Assembly (NCBI RefSeq): GCF_023612375.1
Contig: NZ_CP076852.1
Span: forward strand, 1 to 64,000
Direction of reading: 5' to 3'
Source of the DNA: Mycoplasma sp. SG1
Lineage (GTDB): Bacteria > Bacillota_I > Bacilli_A > Mycoplasmatales > SG1
Length of the DNA: 64,000 bases
Part shown: one piece after another, positions 50,397 through 63,790 of the stretch
Layout: each line of letters opens with the position of its first letter
Position numbering within the stretch: the stretch's first letter is position 1
Position numbers and translations under genes: made by a program
Notes under the pieces: generated by a model
What the model saw: only the letters and a program-made list of their open reading frames with translations
Database searches by the model: none
What the model was told of the DNA's origin: nothing

Positions 50397-51050
50397 TTAA
50401 GAAAGATTTATATAACGATTTTTATAAATAAATATTTTTTCTCTTAAAAATTGAATACATAAATCAGCACATCATTCAAGATTTTTTAAACATCCCATAA
50501 CAGTTGTTAATTGAATAATTTCATCCTTACTTGCGCCTTGTAATTTTTTATTTAAATTTATTAATAATGAATTACAATTATTGTTAATTAAATTTTCAGT
50601 TTGAATAATCCTTGATAAACTTTCTTCGTTATATTTTTTAATAAACTCAATACTTTCTTTAATTTGGAAAATTAATTTATTAATTAGTTTGACTAAAAAT
50701 TCATTAAAGTAATTAAAACTCTTGTAATAGTATTTAATAAATCTTTTTCCGATATCTAAAATTAAATTTGAAATCCGATAACAATCACGAAAAATATTGA
50801 TATAAGCAATCATTTTTCTTAAATCCTTAGCAATCGGTGATTCTTTGGTGATTAATCAAATAATATCAGAAATAATAGTATCGTACTTATCTGAAATTAA
50901 AACATATTCATCAACGTGTTTTTCTGCTCTTTCATGATCATTGTCGATGATAATAATTGTTAATTTTTCAATATAACTAAGAACATCGGTCATGTAGTTG
51001 ATCAAAGCTTTTTTAATAAATTTAATTTCTCTATCGATTGTTCTTGTCAT
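50397..51050 (-). CDS. phoU: PhoU-like phosphate regulator
   Basis: Helical protein of 217 residues, one three-helix-bundle repeat pair. The first repeat has IKKALINYMTDVLSYIEK and the second YNEESLSRIIQTENLINN; the acidic E/D-xxxD metal sites of PhoU are partly kept (VDEYVLISDKYD, EWCADLCIQF). It follows pstB by 18 bp. In other bacteria PhoU restrains the Pst transporter and the PhoR kinase when phosphate is plentiful; with the two-component genes upstream, that is the natural reading. Confidence 0.88.
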
Positions 51051-51068: not shown

Positions 51069-51896
51069 TTATATCTTATCAACTAATTTGTCATATCTTC
51101 CAGTAATATATTTCTCTGTTAATCAATGTTTTGGTCTTGAAAATAAATTTTTTGTATAGTCAACTTCAATTAACTTACCATCAAGAATAAAAACTGTTTT
51201 ATCAGATATTTTTTTAGCTTGATTCATTGAGTGGGTAACTAAAATGATTGTATAATTTTTTTTCAACTTCAAACATAATTCTTCAATTTTACTTGTAGCG
51301 ATTGGATCAAGTGAACTTGTTGGTTCGTCCATTAAAATGACTTCAGGTTTTAAAGCTAAAGCCCTTGCTATACATAAACGTTGTTGTTGTCCACCTGATA
51401 ATTGATGAGCGGGTTTTTTTAAACTGTCTTTAACTTCATCTCATAAAGCTGCTTGTTGTAATGCTTCTTTAACGATTTGTTCTATCACTTGTCTATTTTT
51501 GATACCGTGGATTCTTGGACCAAAAGCAACGTTTTCAAAAATAGAAATTGGAAAAGTGGTTGGTTTTTGAAAAATCATACCAATTTTATAACGTAAATTC
51601 ATTGGATTATAATCAAAAACAGATTTACCATCAAACAAAATATCACCTTCAATTTTAAAACTTTTGCTAATTTCATGCATTCGGTTAATTGACCTTAAAA
51701 TGGTTGATTTCCCGCAACCAGAAGGACCAATGATTGAAAGAATTTTATTTTTTTCAACATTAAAACTAACGTTATCAATTAATTTTTTATTTTCAAAAAT
51801 TACATTAAGTCGATCAACTTTAATTTTCAAAAAATCATCATCTTGATAAGTTGAAGTTTGCTTAGATTGACTATCAATTTCCTTAATATTCGTCAT
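51069..51896 (-). CDS. pstB: Phosphate ABC transporter ATP-binding protein
   Basis: ATPase of the high-affinity phosphate importer; 275 residues. Walker [22 protein letters not shown], typical Pst[21 protein letters not shown], signature [15 protein letters not shown], Walker [14 protein letters not shown], and switch [14 protein letters not shown]. The start ATG (51896) abuts the pstA stop (51897), so the genes are coupled. A 20-residue polar extension precedes the core. Confidence 0.96.
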
Positions 51897-52952
51897 TTAT
51901 TTAGTTTCTGTTGATTTTATTTTACAATTTTTCGAATTTTTAAATTTAATTTTCGATAATAAAAATCGATAACTTTTATTAATTCAATGGCGTTTTGGTT
52001 TTATCCCTGAACTAACATTCATTTTGTTGATAATTTGTTTAGCGGTGAAATTTAATACAATAATAATTAAAAGAATAATAATGATCATTGCGTAAGCAAA
52101 ATGAACAGCATACGGATCTCTTGACTCTTGAAACAAAAGATAGACGGCCGCTGTTAATGTTCTTCCTTGATCAAAAATATTGTGCGGTAAAAAATATGCT
52201 CCTCCCATTGTTAATAGCAAAGGAGCTGATTCTCCAATAATTCTGTTAACAGTTAAAATGATAGTTGAAATAATACCGTTTTTTGCTAACGGAATAATCA
52301 TTTTAAAATTAATCTGAGAAGAAGTAGCACCTAAAGCATAACAATTATAAATTGTATCTTTTGAAACTGTATTAAAACTTTCAAGAAATCCAAATGTCAT
52401 TGTTGGTAAAACAACAAAACAAAGCGTAAATGCCCCTGCTATAATTGAAAAACCAACATAACCTAAACGAAGCGTTTCAACAAATAAACTTAACCCAACC
52501 AAACCAATAACCAGTGATGGAATTGAATTAAGTAACATCATTAAGAAATTTAAAATTTTTTTAACAATTGATTTGTGGGGGGAGTTTAAATATATGGCAG
52601 CAAATAAAGATACAGGGAAAGCAATAATAATTGTAAATACAATAATTAATAAAGTTGAAACAACAAAAGGGGCGACTCCAGAATGCTTAAGATCGCTAGG
52701 ATTATAATCTTTCCAAAGAAAATTTCACTTAATATAAGGTAAACCTTGGACTAAAATATAAATAATAATCGTTAAAATAACTAAAGATAAAATTAAAAAA
52801 GGGATAAATAAGAATAGTCAATATGATGTGCTTTTCAATCCTCTTCTGGTTAAAAAATTATCTTGGAAAAAGTTTTTAACTGAAGATCTAGATACTTTAA
52901 ATCTTAAGTTGTTTTTAAAAGATGAAAATAATTTTTGAAAGTTTTTTTTCAT
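51897..52952 (-). CDS. pstA: Phosphate ABC transporter permease PstA
   Basis: Membrane subunit of the phosphate importer; 351 residues, about six helices. Diagnostic for PstA is NSIPSLVIGLVGLSLF, FNTVSKDTIYNCYALGATSSQINFKMIIPLAKNG (the ATPase-contact loop), and RIIGESAPLLLTMG. A basic N-terminal cytoplasmic extension of about 45 residues is unusual. Located between pstC (9 bp upstream) and pstB (adjacent). Confidence 0.94.
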
Positions 52953-52961
52953 TTTAGAAAA

Positions 52962-53879
52962 TTAATGATGTTGATGAGAGAATTTCAAACTTTTTTTCTG
53001 AATAAAAATAACAGAAAAATTTAAAATACCAACGACTAAAATTAAAATAAAAGCAAAAGTGTATAAAACGGTTTTGTGTTGGCCAAGTGCTTCTAAAATA
53101 TCATTAAAAATTTTATTCGTAATTGTTGAACCTGAACCACCTAAAAATTGCGATCAAAATTTATCCCAATTAGGCATACCAACCGCCCCACCTATAACCA
53201 TACTAACAGCCATAGTTTCTCCAACGGCTCTTCCGATACCCATTAAAAATCCTGAATAAATTCCTGGTTTAATCATCAAAAAAACAATTTTATAATTAAC
53301 TTCTATTTTACTTGCTCCTAAAGCATAAGCTGAATCCTTATAAACTTGTGGAATTGCGCTTAAAGATATGATAATAAAAGTTGAAATAATCGGAGTTATC
53401 ATAATCGCTAAAACAAGTCCTGCAGTAAACAAAGAAAGATTAAATATTGGAACTAAAATTGTTAAACCTAAAAGACCAAAAACAATTGATGGTATCCCTG
53501 ATAAAAATTGGATAATTGAAAATAAAATCGTCTTAATTGGTTTTGAACAATAATCATAAATAAAAAGTGAAAACCCAATCGAAAGCGGTAAGGCAACAAG
53601 AACAGCAATAATAGTTGTTGTAATCGTTCCAATTAAAAACGGCAAGATTCCAAAATGATTAGTTGAAGGATCTCAATTTGAAGAAAAAATTGAACCAAAG
53701 CCATTAACCCCATAAACAAAAATAAAAATTATTATCCCAATAACGATAGCTAATGACAAAAAAATAAAAAATCAAACTAATGTTTTAAAGATATGATTAA
53801 TAACTTTAAGATATTGGTGATATCTATCAAAGCTTGAGGGAATAATTAATGGAGTGAGTTTTGATGGAGGTGTTTTCAT
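52962..53879 (-). CDS. pstC: Phosphate ABC transporter permease PstC
   Basis: Membrane subunit of the phosphate importer; 305 residues. Signatures: NWDPSTNHFGILPFLIGT, LSGIPSIVFGLLG, KDSAYALGASKIEVNYKIVF, and GIGRAVGETMAVSMVIGG. It starts 4 bp after pstS on the same strand. Several Trp are TGA. The periplasmic loop between helices 1 and 2 is short, as common in Gram-positives. Confidence 0.94.
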
Positions 53880-53883
53880 AAAA

Positions 53884-55011
53884 TTAATTATTTCATCAAT
53901 AAGGTTGAATTTGCTTATTATAATCAGATACTTCTATAAATGTTTTCATATATCGATCAAATGAAAGATAACTATCACCGATTTTATTGACTATGACTAT
54001 TTCATTAGAATGTCCGCCACATTTTTGATCACTACAATATATATTAATATATTTTTGATCATCTACAATCGATTTACCTTTCGGTCCAAGAATCCAGTTT
54101 AAAAAATCAAATAAATATTTTTTCTTAGCATCTTCTAAACTGATGATTAAATTTAAAGGGTGCCAAAATAAATAATAGTTTGGATCGTTTGGATGTAAAA
54201 CACCATTCTTAAATATATCATCTGAAACATTTTTGCTATTTGGATCGATTACATCTGTTGATTGAGTATTGTATTTTATTTTTGGCAAATCAATAAAATT
54301 GTAATTGGATTTGATAATATTAATATAACTTAAAGGTAAATAGGCAATCGAACCCTTCATCATTGATAAAATAGAAAGACTTAGTCCGTTTGAATTTGAA
54401 ATTGAAAGATTTTTTGAATCTGGAAGTTTCATATCTGGATGACCGTAAGCTTTCATCGCATTATAAAAACTATCTCTTGTCCCGCTTCCGTTCTCTCTTG
54501 AAATTAAATAGACAGGAACAGGATTACAATCTGGGAAAACATCTTTTCAAGTTTTAGCTTTTCCAGAAAATAATTTGTATAGAACGTCGATTGTGAAAAC
54601 ATCATTTGGAGAAATATTTACTCCTTTTGCGTTAACACCAAAGATAATCCCGTCATATGCAATTGGAAAAGTAGAAAGTTGATTGTTTTTTCAAGTTGAT
54701 GTCTTATACTCGACATCTTCAGGATTTCTTGAAGCATTCCCGATGTTTGTCAATTTATTCATTATGAAATTGATTCCAACTGTACTTCCCCCGCCTGAAA
54801 CACCAATTTTTGTTTCATTAGTGTCATTAAAATATTTATATCCAAGATTTTCTAATAACGGTAAAACTGTTGTGCTCCCGTTAGCAAAAATAACATTACC
54901 GCTTGGAAATACCATGGTTAATAAAAAAGCTAAAAAAACGATAAAAAGAAAAAATAAATAAAGGAGTGATTTTTTTTGATTTTTAAAATATTTTAAAAAT
55001 TTGGTCGACAT
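53884..55011 (-). CDS. pstS: Phosphate-binding protein PstS, membrane-anchored
   Basis: Solute-binding component of phosphate import; 375 residues. It has an uncleaved-looking N-terminal transmembrane anchor (residues about 14-35), rather than a lipobox, then IFANGSTTVLPLLENLG, GVSGGGSTVGINFIMN, NASRNPEDVE and ISRENGSGTRDSFYNAM, the phosphate-ligand loops of PstS. Anchoring suits a cell without periplasm. It starts 8 bp after the kinase stop, so it belongs to the same transcript as the two-component genes. Confidence 0.94.
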
Positions 55012-55019
55012 TTTAGTAT

Positions 55020-56156
55020 TTAGGATTTATTAAATAAAATGTTTACTTGATTATTTAACTTTTTTGAAGAAATGAAAAATTTAATATTATATAAAGTTAA
55101 TAAATATAGTGTTATGTTTAACCCTTTGCCAAGATTCTTTAATAAAAAAAGAATATCAAGCGAATCTATATTTTTTTGATTTATTGTTTTTAAAATTTTA
55201 TCATTTATTGGTTGATTATTGTCTTTAATTGTAACAAAATTATAGTTATTATTATTACCTAAAGTTATTTTTATTTCTAAATCATCAAAATTATCCATCG
55301 AATGAATAATGCTGTTAAAAACTATATTATTTAAGCATAACCAAAAAACTTCATAATGTATTCAAACTTTAATATTTTTGCTCTTATTATAATTAATAAA
55401 TTTTATTTTAATATTTTTAAAAATAGATTTTATGATTTTAAGATAATCTCTAATAACTAAATTAAGATCTATTTCTTTATTTATCTCAAATTTTTTGATA
55501 TCGCTTTCCTTTAAAGATATTAATTCTAAAGTTTTTAAAAAGTTTTTTATTTTTGTAACATGATATTCTGTTTTCTTTTTATTGGACGTTAAAATCATAT
55601 TTTGAAGTGAAGAATTAATTTCATGATTAATAAAGTTAATTATGTTACGAAACAGGAACGAAAAACTCTGATCAATTTCTGAATTTTTAATTGGTTTTCA
55701 AACTACATAATAACATTTATATTTATTTATAAATACTTCTTCAAAATAAATTCTAAATAATCTATTTTTGATTAATAAATTGTTTTTTGTTTTATGTGAA
55801 AAAAAATTATTAAAATAAGTAACTAGTTGTTTATCTTGTAATAATGATAACTGATTTTGATAAAACTTTTTGTTCTTAAAGATGATTGAGTCTTTAAAAA
55901 TAATTGTTATTATATGATTTGAATTCAGATTAATCCAAAATAATTTTAATATCATCAAAAGATCAAGATACGATAAATGTTCTTTTGTTAAGTTGAAAAA
56001 ATAAACTTCCAACATAATAAAAAACAAAAAAGAAATGATGATTATAAAAGTTAGAAAAAAATGAAATTTACCTATATTTAAAAATAAAATTATTAAAAAC
56101 GAAAATATCAATAATTTTAAAATAAGTTTGGAATTAAATGAAAAATATTTGGACAT
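55020..56156 (-). CDS. Sensor histidine kinase, strongly diverged (PhoR-like by context)
   Basis: Membrane kinase of 378 residues. Two adjacent hydrophobic helices (about 10-51) are followed by a cytoplasmic input domain, the H-box FINHEINSSLQ with His178, the N-box LNNIVFNSIIHS (275-286), G1 KDNNQPI (311-317) and G2 LGKGLNI (342-348). The boxes are weak but in the right order and spacing. Sitting between an OmpR-type regulator and pstS, it probably senses phosphate status through the Pst complex, as PhoR does. It lacks an extracellular sensing loop. Confidence 0.85.
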
Positions 56157-56944: not shown

Positions 56945-58738
56945 TTAGTTATAGAAATAATATTTAAATTTGTGTTTCTGTTCTGAAGATAAATCTTTTG
57001 AAGTTGGATGAGTTATGTATTTATAAAAACTATCAGAAATGCCAGGATTGCTTTCGAAACAAAGGTTAACGCTGTTGTAATAGCAGTTATTAATAAAAAT
57101 TCTAAAACGATTTAAAAAGTATATATTGCTTAAAATTTTTTTACTAACAAATTTATCGATAAAAATGTATTTGGGTTTTGTTACTAAAATTAAATTTAAT
57201 TGTTCGCGATTAAAAATATTAGCATAAAAAGAAAATAAAATATTTTTTTCTTTAAAGAATTCAACTATTTTAAATAATTTATAATGGTTTGTAAAAAATA
57301 AGTTATTTATAAAGAAGCAAACATAATTGGTTAAATTATTCGCTTTTAACATATCGCTTATTACGGTTAAATTATCAAATAATATTTCAAAAGAAATGCT
57401 GATGAAATAAGTTAAAGATGGTTTTTTTTTCGATTTTGCGCTTTTAGCAAGATGCTCTTTTTGAACAATAATATTTTTATTTATTTCAGAAAAAATATAT
57501 TTAATAACCTGCAATAAATATGATGTTTGTTCGGCTGGAATATTAAAGAAAAATTTTTCTGCTGTTTTGTTTCAAAAATTAATTGCTCAGAAATTGGTTT
57601 CTGGTTGGTCAAAAATATCTATTAAATAACCTAATGGATTATTTATTTTTCTTTTTTCTTTATAAATTGGTGAAAAGTTTAAATTTAAAAAGTTTTTTGA
57701 TTTTAAGAACGAAAAAGAAAAAGTCTTTAAAAATACATTTAAATATTGATTTTGAGTATCAAAAATAGTATAAAAATCACATTGATTATGTTGTCCTAGC
57801 AATAAAGCAATTTGAGCGTATTTAAATGATAGATCTAATGAAACTGTTTGATTTAAATTATTTTTATTTTTAAAAATATAATATCCTGATCTTACTTTAA
57901 CTTGGAAAAAATTATTAAAATAATTTAATTTTGTAAATATTCTTTTATTAAAAGCGCTATCTATTTTTTTTAAATGAAGTCTATTTTTGATATGCGGTTT
58001 GTAAATGATTATTTCGTTAATTGTTGAAAAAAAAATAATAATATCCTTACCTAAAGTTGAATATAAAATTTTAATTAAATTAATGATATAGCGATTTAAA
58101 TACTCAGTAGCATAATCATGGTTAAAAAGGTATCTAAAAAAATTTTCGATTTTAATTGTTCCGATAACGCCATATCTTCGATAATCAAATTTTTTAAAAA
58201 TTTGACTATTCGTTGTTTGCTTGGTATAAATCTTATAAATAAAATTACTAAAATTAAAATAGTTATAAACCCGTTCTGGAAGTTCTTTAATTACTGCATC
58301 AGAACTTTTAAATTGTTGGACATTAAAAATATTATTAAAAATAAGTAATGCTTCTACTTTTTCATTAGTTAATTTTGTAATTTTAAAAAAACAAGGTAAA
58401 AGAGTTCCATCTTTTAATTTAACATCTGTTTTAATTGTTAAATATAAATTGGGAACTTCTTCGATATTGTTGTACTTTTTAACACATTCTTTGATTGTAT
58501 ATGCATTTAAGGAAAAAATATCTGAAAAATTATTAAGAACATATTCTCTGTTCGGTTTAATTCATAACTCATTACTAGTAGTTGTGAATTCATTTTTTAA
58601 TTTATCAATTTTAATCAATGCTGGTAAAAAATGAAAATTAAAATGTTTTTTTTGTTTTTTTAGCAATAGATAAAATAATATCAAAGCTCAACCTACAAAA
58701 AAGGATAAAAAAATAAGAATAAAAATCAAAAAATTCAT
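56945..58738 (-). CDS. Membrane protein with degenerate GGDEF-like and EAL-like domains
   Basis: A 597-residue protein not recognised by direct motif. One N-terminal helix (about 2-26). A possible PAS-like segment lies at 60-150. Residues about 188-325 follow the GGDEF layout: YGVIGTIKIENFFRYLF (like the diDxFK strand), a helix, FFSTINEIIIYK where GGDEF should be, VKVRSGYYIF, and SFKYAQIALLLGQ (like the ADxALYxAK helix). Residues about 345-560 follow an EAL layout: LNFSPIY, LGYLIDIF at the EAL position, FISISFEILF, FFKEKNILFSFYANIF (DDFG-like region), KPKYIFIDKFV (IKID-like). None of the catalytic residues remains. Probably a binding or scaffolding signalling protein of the adjacent two-component system. 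The fold assignment is inference. Confidence 0.6.
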
Positions 58739-58798: not shown

Positions 58799-58832
58799 TA
58801 AAAAAAATAACCAGACTAAACATCTGGTTATT
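58799..58832 (-). terminator. Rho-independent terminator after MFS transporter 1
   Basis: Stem AATAACCAGA / TCTGGTTATT with a 7-nt loop; on the minus strand it is followed by a run of T. Located 9 nt past the MFS stop; separates that gene from the GGDEF/EAL-like gene. Confidence 0.88.
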
Positions 58833-58840
58833 TCTAATAA

Positions 58841-60457
58841 TTATTGAACCCTCAATAAACTAACTTTTAGAAGGAGAATAGATCTTAAATAAATTAAAAT
58901 TCTTAAATCAATAATATTTTTTCATCTTAAAATATATCTTCTATAGATGTATGTGAATATAAATTGATTTATTTTTATTTTGTACTCTTTAGGATCTTGA
59001 GGTGAGTTTGTGTTAATGTTTAGCATTTGGTTTTGTACTTTTGTGATGTGTTTATTGATTTTACCATCAGTAGGTAGTTTATAAATTCAATATCATAAAA
59101 GAAATGATGCTAAAAGTCCAACTAAACCGACAGCAATTGAAAATAACATAATTAATTGATTTCCTAACTGATCAGTAGCATACCCAATTGATGGATATAA
59201 AACTTGATGATGAGATTGAATCGCTGATTTAACTGCTTGGAAGAAAGCATCTGGAAGAAAAGCGATGAATGAAATAAAAGCAACCGCTCCTGAATATTGT
59301 TGTTCATTAATTTTTAACTCTGTTGCTATAGCACTTCAACGAATAGTTACTAAACATCAAGCTGCAAATCCTAAACAAATCATATTTAAACCGGCAAGAA
59401 TTTGAATTGGAATAAAGTATCAAGCTTGGGAATGATCTCTAAAATTGTTATAAAATCCTGGGAGAATAATTACCAAAAGAGTTAAAGTGGTTGAGATAAC
59501 TAACCCTCACGTAATATAAAGAATATAATGGTTTTTTTTATCAGCAAATCTTCCCATAACAAATGAAGAGACAAATCGCATTAAATAAGTTTTTGAAAGT
59601 CCTAAGATAAAGACAACAATTGAAGAAAATAAAAAGACATTTTTCATGTAATCAGTGTAACCACTTAACGCCATCTGATACATGTAAATGCCCATTACTG
59701 AAATTGAATATAGTCAAAGTTTTGGACTTGCCGCGTTTTTAAAACAAGCTTTAAAGTTGTTTCAAAGATTTAATTTAGATTTTGTTTTCACTTCATCTTC
59801 TCTTACATATTTAATAACAAAAATGAAAGAGATAAGAAGTGACACAGAATAGCAAGATGTTAAAACTAAAAATCCGATATGAATGTGCCCGACTTGGGGA
59901 TTGATAAAAAGGAAGATTGTCCCTATAACAGCAATTAATGCCCCTAAAAATCCATTGATTGATCCTTCAAGACCATTCATTGTTCCAACTTGTTCTTTTT
60001 TTCCTTGCATTGCTACTAGTTTTCATAGCGGAGATCAAAAAAACAAAACCGAGAAAACTCCCATCGCGATAAATATTAACAGATAATTTCAAAAAGCAGT
60101 GCTGTAGACATAATCATGGGGATTGGGGTTGGGTCAAATAATTGGTACCAATGAATATCATACCCCGATGACAAACATTCCAAAAACACCAATTAAAATT
60201 AAAGTTTTACATTTAAACTTATCTGCAAAAGACATCGCAAAGACATATAAAACGATGTTAACTATTCCATAAATACTTCTAACAAGTGACAACTGATAAT
60301 CTGTAATCTGCATATCATGTTGAAGATTAGGTAAAAAATTTGAAAGATAGGATGGAAATGCAAATATGGCTAAATCACTTAAAGCTAAAACAGCAATCGG
60401 AATAACTTGTCAACGAAAACTTAAGTCTTTAAATAAAAAATTTTTTATCCGTTTCAT
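58841..60457 (-). CDS. MFS transporter (paralogue 1)
   Basis: Major facilitator protein of 538 residues with about 12 helices. Motif-A-like loop between helices 2 and 3 is FAMSFADKFKCKTLIL, and the matching loop in the second half is VMGRFADKKNHYILY. The overall pattern resembles organophosphate:phosphate antiporters. With a phosphodiesterase-type gene next door, uptake of phosphorylated compounds is a fair guess, not a demonstration. The C-terminal tail of about 60 residues is basic and polar. It is closely related to the transporter at 62210-63790; stretches such as MGIYMYQMALSGYTDYMKNV are identical. Confidence 0.85.
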
Positions 60458-60493: not shown

Positions 60494-61627
60494 TTATATA
60501 CTAATTTTTATCCTTTTTAATAAATTCTTATCTTCATCGTACAAATAAAGATATTGTATTTTGTTTTTCTTAGCAAAGATGATTGCATTATCGATTGCTC
60601 TTTTTTCACCGATTGATAAAAATATATTTTTAGCTTTTCAATAAAGAGCATAAGTAGCTCCTCCATATCTTTGATATAGACATAGTCGTCCATTATCTCA
60701 ATCTTTAAACATAAAAGAAAGATTTTTACCATTTCAGTAATCAGGAAAAGGAATGTCTAGTCTTCAAAGAAGCGTTTTAGCAAAATCATAATGCATTAAA
60801 GGGTATGGGATATGTCATCTTTTTACCATTTTCCCATAGAAAATCATCGGTACTGTTAACTCTAACGGATTAAGTCCTCCATGACATTCATCATCACAAG
60901 CGACTCCACCGTGATCAGCAAGAAAAGTTAATAAAGTCGTTTTTCTAACTTCATCATCTTCTTCTATCATCTTTAAAACTTCTCCTAATCAATAATCAAT
61001 AACTTTGGCTCGTTCAAATATGTAATCTGTTTGATGACCATAAACATGTCCAGTTGTATCAGGTTCATTAACATAAATGATTAAAAGGAATGGTTTCTCT
61101 TTTTTAAAATATTCGATCGCTTTATCTACAATATCATAATTGACTAACATGTTGTCTTGATAATTGATAGTTAATGATTTAGGGGTTGTCCCTCAGTGTT
61201 CTTGATCTTCTTTTGAAACTGGATTGTAATAATAATCAGCTAAATCTAATTCAACGATATCATTCCATTGCGGTCATCTAAAAAAAACAGCAACTTTTTT
61301 ATTTGGAAATCTTTCCTTTGTTAATTTAACAATACTTGGTGGATTTAAATATTTGTCATCGTACTTATCTAGTTCAGGAGTTGATGAATTTCATTCTGTC
61401 TTACCGTGAATATTGGTTGAAACGCCACGCATTAATGTGTTCCAATTATTAGCAGAAACAGAAGGAAAAACGGCATGACTTTTTAATGAATAAGCTCCAT
61501 CTTTAATTATTTTTTTTAGGTTTGGAAGATTATCTAAATTATTTCTGATTAAATAACTTCCGAAAGCATCAGCGCCAAATATTATTGTGTGTTTAATTTG
61601 GTTAGTACTATCAAGTGTTTTTTTCAT
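60494..61627 (-). CDS. Alkaline-phosphatase-superfamily phosphodiesterase/nucleotide pyrophosphatase
   Basis: Metal-dependent phosphodiesterase of 377 residues. IIFGADAFGSYL gives the first metal Asp, VFPSVSANNWNTLMRG the Ser nucleophile region, NEPDTTGHVYG the PDxxGHxxG metal site, and FLADHGGVACDDECHGG the DHGG site. No signal peptide, so it seems cytoplasmic. It lies between two MFS paralogues and 11 bp after a smaller relative, suggesting degradation of an imported phosphodiester. The exact substrate is unknown. Confidence 0.85.
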
Positions 61628-61638
61628 AATAATCTCTT

Positions 61639-62181
61639 TTAATTTTTGATGAAATTGATTTTTTTACCACGTTTATTTTCAATAAATTCGTTATAAAAAC
61701 TATTAATCGTAATAGCGACATCATTGATAGTGTAAAACTTATCTTCAATTTTTTTAGACTCAAAATAAGGACCAGCGAAAATAACAGGTAAATTGATATC
61801 TTTATCTTGAACTCCTCCGCCTGTTATTGTTCCAGGATCTTTTTCTCCTTCAGTGCTAACAATGACAAAATTAGTATTTTTACATTTGTTAGTAAAACAA
61901 TTAACTATCTCATTAATTTGTTGATAAATATCAGAAATGTTAAGGTCAGAAGTTTTATTGAGAATTAAAATATCTTTGTTTTGAATAATCTTTGAGCTTT
62001 CAAAACCTGCAGCTATTAGTTCAGTTGGTAATCCATCATTTAAAATAATTTTTTTATTAAATCTTGCAAGATTGGGTAATCCAGATCTTATTTTTTGAAA
62101 AAGAAACGAAAAGTTTAATTTTTCTTTATTTTCGATAAAGCTTTTATAGCTTAAATTTTTAATTAAAATTAATACTAACAT
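61639..62181 (-). CDS. Short alkaline-phosphatase-superfamily relative, catalytically altered
   Basis: A 180-residue protein, about half the length of its neighbour. The C-terminal region, IVSTEGEKDPGTITGGG then LPVIFAGPYFE and NDVAITINSF, aligns with the ADHGG ... VPMIFYGK ... HYDFAKTLL region of the phosphodiesterase, but the key Asp-His are replaced by Thr-Glu. The N-terminal MLVLILIKNL matches the first strand with the metal Asp changed to Lys. It may be a degenerate duplicate, a pseudoenzyme partner, or a truncated gene; it ends 11 bp before the intact paralogue. Confidence 0.65.
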   Translation of the reverse strand: MLVLILIKNLSYKSFIENKEKLNFSFLFQKIRSGLPNLARFNKKIILNDGLPTELIAAGFESSKIIQNKDILILNKTSDLNISDIYQQINEIVNCFTNKCKNTNFVIVSTEGEKDPGTITGGGVQDKDINLPVIFAGPYFESKKIEDKFYTINDVAITINSFYNEFIENKRGKKINFIKN

Positions 62182-62209: not shown

Positions 62210-63790
62210 TTATAATAATGATCTTATAGGTGAAAGGAACAACGTTTTTTTAAATTTGGCTAATATCAACAGTCATTTAGTTTTAAAACTTTCAAGTCTA
62301 CTAATTACATTACTGTCTGTTTTTTGTTCTATGTTTGGAGTGGCTTGTTTTTTGCAATAAAAAAGAAGTTTATTACGAACTTTTTGAACAAATTTATTCA
62401 TTCTTTCGCTATTTGGATATTTATATATTCAAAACCAAAGCAAAAAGGCAGATACTAAACCAAACAAACCAACTGCTAATGAAAATAATAATATATACTG
62501 ATTTCCTAATTGACTTGTCGCATTTTTATGTAAAGCAGGATATCAAACTTGATGGTCTGATTGAATTGCTGACTTAACAGCTTGAAAGTATGCATCTGGT
62601 AGAAAAGCTATAAATGAAACAAACGCAACTGCTCCTGAATATTGCTTTTCATGAATTTTTAACTCTGTTGCTATTGCACTTCAACGAATGGTTACTAAAC
62701 ATCAAGCAGAAAAACCCAAACAAACCATATTTAAACCAGCAAGGATTTGAATTGGAATGAAATATCATTGTGAAGTTTCATCTCTAAAATTATTCCCAAA
62801 CCCTGGCAAAAGAATAACCATCAAGGTTAAGGCGGATGAAATTACAAGTCCTCAAAGAATATAAAGTGTGTAATGATTTTTCTTGTCAGCGAAACGCCCC
62901 ATAAAATAAGATGAAACAAACCGCATTAGATAAGTTTTTGAAAGTCCTAAAATAAAGACAACTACTCCTGAAAATAAAAAGACATTTTTCATGTAATCGG
63001 TGTAACCGCTTAAAGCCATTTGATACATGTAAATTCCCATAACTGAAATACCATATAATCATAATTTTGGACTTTTGGCATTCCCAAAACATGCTTTAAT
63101 ATTACCTTTAAAATCAAAAGTAGAAACTTCTTTTCGATCTTCTACAACGAATTTCCCAACCGCAAAAAATGAACAAATTAAGACAAGCGAATAACAAGAT
63201 GTTAAAACAAAAAAGCCGATGCTGTGACCATCGACTTTAGGATCTATAAAGAAAAAAATTGTTCCTATGATAGCAATAATTGAACCAAAGAAACCATTAA
63301 ATGAACCTTCAAGTCCATTCATTGTTGAAACTTGTTCTCTTTTTCCTTGAAGAGCAATTAACTTTCATAGTGGAGCTCAGAAAAATAAACCTGTAAAAAT
63401 AGCGATTAAAATAAAGATAACTAAATAATTATAAAAATTTGCTGTATAGACGTCTGGGGAAGGATTCCCAGGAGTTCAAATTATTGGAACTAAACTATAT
63501 CAAATGCCGGTTAAAAACATTCCAAAAATACCAATCAAAATTAAAGTTTTACATTTAAATTTATCTGCAAAAGACATCGCAAAAATATATAAAAATATTT
63601 TAATACCACCGTAAATACTTCTGATCAAAGATAGTTGAGAATCTGCGATCCCCATATCACTTTGAAGGTTTGGTAAAAAATTAGAAAGATACGATGGAAA
63701 GGCAAAAATTGCTAGATCACTAAATGCTAGCGCAATGATTGGAATAATTTGTCAACGGATACTTAATCCAGCAAAAAGTTTTTTAAACAT
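62210..63790 (-). CDS. MFS transporter (paralogue 2)
   Basis: Major facilitator protein of 526 residues, close paralogue of the one at 58841-60457. Shared features: AFSDLAIFAFPSYLSNFLP in helix 1, FAMSFADKFKCKTLIL, QGKREQVSTMNGLEGS, GRFADKKNHYTLY and WCLVTIRWSAIATELKI. Differences concentrate in the loop around 135-150, the extracellular loops and the C-terminal tail. First gene of a probable run with the two phosphatase-like genes and MFS 1. Substrate unknown; organophosphate/phosphate exchange is the leading guess. Confidence 0.85.

Follow-up and report, generated by a model that had tools for sequence, protein, structure and literature searches.

At the head of a phosphate-transport cluster in the window (the whole 64,000-nucleotide stretch of Mycoplasma sp. 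SG1 DNA analysed here) stands a gene whose product, P0001, raises the question of what a protein with the domain order of a c-di-GMP enzyme would be doing beside a two-component system in a mollicute. The initial annotation had recognised one membrane helix, a GGDEF-order segment and an EAL-order segment, and had proposed a catalytically dead relic reused as a signalling scaffold or ligand binder, possibly as a third component of phosphate sensing. The reading frame is intact over exactly the interval given in Table 1, with 4 TGA codons read as Trp, and the host genome (622,752 bases) is the sole representative of its family among the genomes compared.

Searches of Pfam, NCBIfam and the PDB sequences with P0001 alone returned no match, and the separate PF00990 and PF00563 matches that had been anticipated for it did not appear in Pfam; relatives in the same alignment do match EAL. 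A scan of the wider genome contigs with P0001 returned no relative. Relatives were instead located by scanning 320 genomes of the order for EAL. Of these genomes, 48 encode EAL-like proteins above the Pfam cut-off, and the scan distinguished two kinds of mollicute EAL-like protein, one with multiple membrane helices and one with a single membrane helix like P0001. Proteins of the multi-helix kind (loci in Table 1), which combine about 6-7 membrane helices with GGDEF-like and EAL-like parts and lie at a conserved place, exceed the Pfam EAL cut-off in many genomes, yet their EAL and DD signatures are replaced. A GGDEF profile search of the order proved a false trail, the matches sampled being GdpP-type c-di-AMP phosphodiesterases.

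A profile of P0001 and eight single-helix proteins gave 13 matches in the PDB, exclusively to EAL proteins (BlrP1 1.4e-4); this result may be driven by the members with clear EAL domains, and P0001 was therefore tested by itself. On its own it scored 37.3 against the multi-helix EAL profile (best shuffle 27.5) and 41.6 against the profile of MHO_4530, an uncharacterised M. hominis protein (NF045955), where the best shuffle reached 23.9 and residues 442-569 matched in register; 0 of 151 shuffles of P0001 attained its score against the EAL-type or MHO_4530 profiles. Among 167 native decoys from the same genomes, the equal scorers belonged to the family save for one protein, which matched the multi-helix profile through a membrane helix, and E. 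coli PdeH, a true EAL enzyme, reached only 26.6 in the same test. In profile comparison the GGDEF half alone (residues 150-345) did not stand out from its shuffles, of which 7/150 and 4/150 reached its score. CsrD fails this same test, and the counterpart of P0001 in G002, a genome of another mollicute family, passes it (GdpP GGDEF profile, 75% probability, 0/150 shuffles).

The AlphaFold2 model built from P0001 and 15 relatives (16 sequences) has one membrane helix followed by a PAS-like domain, then a domain in the GGDEF order and a barrel in the EAL order; together with Foldseek it bears out the helix and both segments first read from the sequence, and its elements agree with the limits originally drawn for GGDEF (188-325) and EAL (345-560). 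In the GGDEF part, strand 189-197, helices 200-229, hairpin 234-250, helix 253-272, strand 280-290, helix 301-318 and strand 325-327 follow the strand-helices-hairpin-helix-strand-helix-strand order of the fold at pLDDT 45-67, while the EAL barrel, with antiparallel first strands, extends from 351 to about 576 and is best defined over 441-580. The mean pLDDT is 55, with the PAS-like and GGDEF parts below 70. When the model was compared with the PDB by Foldseek, the best match was 5xgb, the PAS-GGDEF-EAL structure of PA0861 (RbdA) from Pseudomonas aeruginosa (E 1.8e-13 over about 617 columns), followed by DosP, MorA and LapD; all 50 matches listed were GGDEF-EAL or EAL proteins, with 0 unrelated folds among those. 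Over the full soluble part of P0001 no structure matched better than PA0861, which differs in having c-di-GMP binding and catalytic residues and in sharing only about 10% identity. TM-scores were about 0.6-0.65 against EAL targets and 0.38 for the whole chain, the latter being low because domain placement is uncertain. Modelled from its single sequence, P0001 gave a pLDDT of 38, meaningless Foldseek matches and no fold, so the fold rests on the homologues and the controls. Taken with these, P0001 very probably has a degenerate GGDEF-EAL fold, of which the GGDEF half is the weaker assignment, predicted from the model and the G002 counterpart.

The catalytic motifs are gone, as the initial annotation had supposed. 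The first strand of the GGDEF domain reads IKIENFF against D-x-D-N-F, the metal Asp residues being replaced, and its hairpin reads STINEI where GGDEF is expected, the GG(D/E)EF motif being absent. FSPIY in the EAL part corresponds to the first strand that is conserved there, and by comparison with PdeH the positions of EAL, Asn, DD and Lys are taken by GYLID, ISIS, FYAN and YIFID; of the catalytic set E(AL), N, E, DD, K, E, Q at most one Glu is kept (FES at the AEGVE position), and EAL has lost its C-terminal QGY part. Pfam GGDEF and EAL models (diguanylate cyclase included) match nothing anywhere in the host genome, which does encode a c-di-AMP cyclase. Judged from these residues, it is very probable that P0001 carries out no c-di-GMP turnover. 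Degenerate GGDEF-EAL proteins are already known in LapD, FimX and CsrD (PMC10333796). The c-di-GMP receptors LapD and FimX share with P0001 the domain order and the loss of catalysis but retain a binding signature that P0001 is without, while CsrD of E. coli is likewise membrane-bound, strongly degenerate and non-enzymatic.

P0001 belongs within a wider circle of proteins. NF045955 has matches in 131 of the 320 genomes of the order, nearly all of them in one family (here f7), and in 0 of 14 control genomes. Proteins of the MHO_4530 family (about 515 aa) resemble P0001 in having one N-terminal membrane helix and a GGDEF-then-EAL-like order, and they share with the G002 counterpart a chromosomal slot after pcrA; P0001 differs in being longer, in adjoining a two-component pair and pst, and in falling below the family model. 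As it scores under the curated NF045955 cut-off, we name it a distant homologue and not a member. A protein from the genome G009 bridges the two (NF045955 1.8e-8 over its whole length, EAL 0.019). By this evidence of gene order and profiles, the MHO_4530 family, for which no fold had been described before, is a degenerate GGDEF-EAL family; the literature searched held no account of its fold or of a link to the Pho two-component system, the name MHO_4530 appearing in one line of an expression table (PMC5533444). One genome carries two MHO_4530 copies with identical scores (G086:C1:18171-19703 and 683363-684895, 265.9 bits), possibly a duplicated contig end.

Close pairs in the MHO_4530 family have dN/dS of 0.03-0.25 (n=11), indicative of purifying selection, and the wider family is by this measure a working protein and not a decaying relic. 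The proposal of a relic thus holds in one part, in that P0001 is degenerate and dead, but needs correcting in the other, as the EAL-like proteins, the MHO_4530 matches and the selection on them show that it is no lone survivor. For P0001 itself, the idea of a pseudogene was rejected on the same dN/dS values and on a 597-codon frame that stays open at very low G+C.

On the minus strand, an MFS transporter gene is followed by a strong terminator-like hairpin, P0001, the regulator, the kinase, PstS, two permeases, PstB and PhoU (Table 1), which confirms the adjacency to a regulator/kinase pair and the pst genes that was noted at the outset; the arrangement is conserved in G002. The gap between P0001 and the regulator is 90 bases, against 0-18 bases between the downstream genes, so that P0001 either opens the operon or stands as a single gene immediately before it. 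Terminator-like sites across the region are at chance in number; the 58803-58835 hairpin is placed exactly after the MFS gene, and given this position P0001 probably begins a new transcription unit. A promoter scan of the region was at chance level, and the idea of an RNA element at the locus was rejected, Rfam having no match near P0001. The regulator, for which the top NCBIfam scores are PhoB models, retains the acidic pair, the phosphoacceptor Asp55 and Lys106; since the receiver residues are intact, the regulator/kinase pair is predicted to be able to signal. The H-box HEIxxxLQN is common to the window kinase and the G002 kinase, and the ATPase domain scores 0.12 in Pfam and 2.1e-4 in NCBIfam in the former and 5.9e-7 in the latter. 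A scan of the wider genome contigs with a PstC alignment found matches only in distant bacteria and archaea. The cluster resembles PhoR-PhoB with PstSCAB-PhoU in its PhoB-best regulator and in the presence of all Pst genes and PhoU, and departs from it in the extra GGDEF-EAL-fold protein at its head. Two closely related MFS transporters lie upstream, at 58841-60457 and 62210-63790, and between them are a type I phosphodiesterase/nucleotide pyrophosphatase gene (60494-61627) and a 180-aa ORF (61639-62181) with no Pfam match; the MFS and phosphodiesterase genes may form an organic-phosphate uptake cluster beside the Pho cluster.

Table 1. Features of the P0001 locus (window positions) and loci of related interest in other genomes.
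Feature	Position	Strand	Details
P0001, predicted membrane-anchored PAS-like/GGDEF/EAL-fold protein without catalytic residues	56945..58738	-	597 aa, code 4
P0001 residues 2-31, single N-terminal membrane helix	58646..58735	-	AlphaFold2 pLDDT about 90 over residues 1-20
P0001 residues 41-134, beta-rich PAS-like domain, low confidence	58337..58618	-	pLDDT 35-46; Foldseek alignment to PA0861 structure
P0001 residues 187-327, degenerate GGDEF domain	57758..58180	-	AlphaFold2 element order, Foldseek, sequence
P0001 residues 345-576, degenerate EAL barrel	57011..57706	-	Profile controls, AlphaFold2 (pLDDT 64-87 over 441-580), Foldseek, PdeH comparison
Intrinsic-terminator-like hairpin between upstream MFS gene and P0001	58803..58835	-	14 pairs and T tail
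PhoB-like response regulator, receiver and winged helix	56168..56854	-	REC 2.8e-14, Trans_reg_C 5.6e-12
Histidine kinase, N-terminal membrane helices, divergent ATPase domain	55020..56156	-	NF008468 2.1e-4
PstS phosphate-binding protein	53884..55011	-	PF12849 3.9e-18
Pst permease, PstC position	52962..53879	-	38% identity to G002 counterpart
Pst permease, PstA position	51897..52952	-	38% identity to G002 counterpart
PstB ATPase	51069..51896	-	phmmer 1.8e-96 vs G002 counterpart
PhoU	50397..51050	-	PF01895 1e-14
Orphan PhoB-like regulators (other genomes)	L081 8080-8766, L082 7836-8510, L083 7035-7712, L085 7598-8272, L086 7733-8413		
Multi-helix EAL-like proteins (other genomes)	L004-L033, L054, L055, L062, L065-L067		

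With X standing for P0001 or its counterpart, the order X-regulator-kinase-PstS-PstC-PstA-PstB-PhoU is found again in a second family of mollicutes and a third family has X-PstS-PstCA-PstB-PhoU, a recurrence that is newly described here. In G002 the full order is AsnRS-RDD-PcrA-X-regulator-kinase-PstS-PstC-PstA-PstB-PhoU-ProS, with X a protein of 540 aa that has one membrane helix and a Pfam EAL match of 0.0016. In G058, of the third family, it is X-PstS-PstCA-PstB-PhoU-ProS, without regulator or kinase and with PstC and PstA fused; there X matches EAL at 0.0087 and the PstS-like protein matches TIGR02136 at 1e-9. Genomes of families f10 and f7 have X between PcrA and ProS with no pst there, and those of f4 have X before ProS. 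The slot after pcrA or before proS is filled by the G002 and G009 proteins; P0001 is not located there. The simplest history is an ancestral RDD-PcrA-X-regulator-kinase-pst-PhoU-ProS block from which different parts were lost, the window having kept X-regulator-kinase-pst. In the G002 regulator (L089 8229-8880) the receiver ORF ends in a stop and the winged helix continues in another frame, which is either a frameshift or a sequence error.

Receiver domains occur in 12 of the 320 genomes of the order. In one family the order is MetRS-regulator-PstS-PstCA-PstB-PhoU, without kinase and without X, and we infer that this family comprises the M. penetrans relatives; the orthologue beside two-component genes that the initial annotation had proposed to look for in such genomes is not at that place, an orphan regulator preceding pst. 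These orphan PhoB-like regulators (Table 1) have lost the phosphoacceptor Asp and kept the winged helix, and may be seen as a phosphorylation-independent Pho regulator in the making.

What, then, might P0001 do? The best reading is that of a non-enzymatic modulator of the Pho sensor pair, a function that, together with its ligand, partner and direction of effect, we infer. We assign a probability of roughly 0.55 to P0001 being an accessory component of the phosphate-sensing circuit, with its dead GGDEF-EAL body employed as a scaffold; for a functional link to the Pho/Pst circuit as such, we consider the chances to be even. With both catalytic folds dead, and one membrane helix and a PAS-like domain besides, binding is the activity that is likely to be left. 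The body would bind proteins as a scaffold that responds to a ligand, with its one helix fixing it at the membrane, and its PAS or nucleotide-like pockets would read a cytoplasmic cue; contact with the adjacent kinase (or PstB/PhoU) would then shift the kinase/phosphatase balance, and in turn alter the PhoB-like regulator driving pst. Its retained position in front of pst and of a receiver/kinase pair that is intact suggests an accessory which adjusts the kinase or links it to PstB/PhoU. The role of third component envisaged at the outset is plausible from gene order, because three families keep the gene at the front of the pst operon.

The leading rival, nearly as likely as the accessory Pho role, is a general housekeeping function outside phosphate, in which X was ancestrally placed as pcrA-X-proS, the Pho/pst cluster lay by chance between X and proS, and P0001 lies by the regulator only through an inherited neighbourhood. 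All or part of pcrA-X-proS is found in f7, f10 and f4 genomes with no pst at that place, and in f7, where 128 genomes carry the family, PhoU was detected in only 38 of the 124 searched. As most genomes with the family lack detectable PhoU, phosphate sensing cannot be its only role, nor does its function depend on Pst/PhoU in general; as MHO_4530 members also lie between pcrA and proS where neither pst nor a two-component pair is present, adjacency to pst need not mean a role in phosphate sensing. However, the window X lost pcrA and proS as neighbours and kept the regulator-kinase-pst cluster, and G058 kept X-pst without regulator and kinase; in families with extensive rearrangement the retained linkage is the pst one, which counts against mere inherited order.

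Other readings concern what the body itself may be. A nucleotide receptor, binding c-di-AMP, GTP/ATP or scavenged c-di-GMP without catalysis in a dead pocket of the GGDEF or EAL domain, in the manner of LapD, FimX and the GdpP GGDEF domain, is unlikely: the structures of LapD and FimX share the domain order of P0001 by Foldseek, and the genome encodes a c-di-AMP cyclase, but LapD and FimX keep an ExLxR-type signature (PMC10333796) where P0001 has GYLID at that strand and no QGY part, c-di-GMP use is not known in mollicutes except Acholeplasma laidlawii (PMC11535214), and Pfam identifies no diguanylate cyclase in the host. That P0001 is not a GGDEF-EAL homologue at all, but an unrelated membrane protein of alpha/beta type forced into the fold by the alignment, would agree with its having no Pfam or PDB sequence match alone and with the meaningless single-sequence model; it is nevertheless very improbable, given that the EAL comparison passed the shuffle and decoy controls, that the gene-order orthologue carries its own EAL match, and that Foldseek agrees over all three domains in the right order. 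A CsrD-like role, in which a dead membrane-bound GGDEF-EAL protein steers RNA decay, is improbable, if less so. Among known proteins CsrD comes closest to P0001 in how far it has decayed, the mollicute multi-TM EAL profile recognises it at 74% probability, and a weak CsrD match (0.005) is seen in the G009 homologue of P0001, yet P0001 itself has none in NCBIfam and no Rfam match lies near the locus. CsrD acts via RNase E on the CsrB/C RNAs, and RNase E is not known from mollicutes.

The accessory role in phosphate sensing would place P0001 within a broader pattern. Mycoplasma-related bacteria, having apparently dropped c-di-GMP, may have kept the enzyme chassis as a conserved non-enzymatic membrane regulator, the MHO_4530/P0001 superfamily, which in at least three families may have become a dedicated phosphate-circuit component acting on PhoR-PhoB or directly on Pst, a generalisation that we offer only tentatively. 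One further mollicute protein, the product of gene U1 of Candidatus Oceanoplasma callogorgiae, is alike by description only, with a membrane segment and an EAL match; U1 is the highest-transcribed of four unannotated genes, and its EAL match was taken as evidence for c-di-GMP use (PMC11535214). Our results suggest, contrary to that inference, that EAL-like signals in mollicutes need not mean c-di-GMP signalling. They also provide a fold and a testable role for an uncharacterised family that about 130 genomes of the mycoplasma order encode, among them those of several human and animal pathogens. For very small genomes, in which two-component systems are seldom found, they make P0001 a candidate extra component of phosphate sensing.
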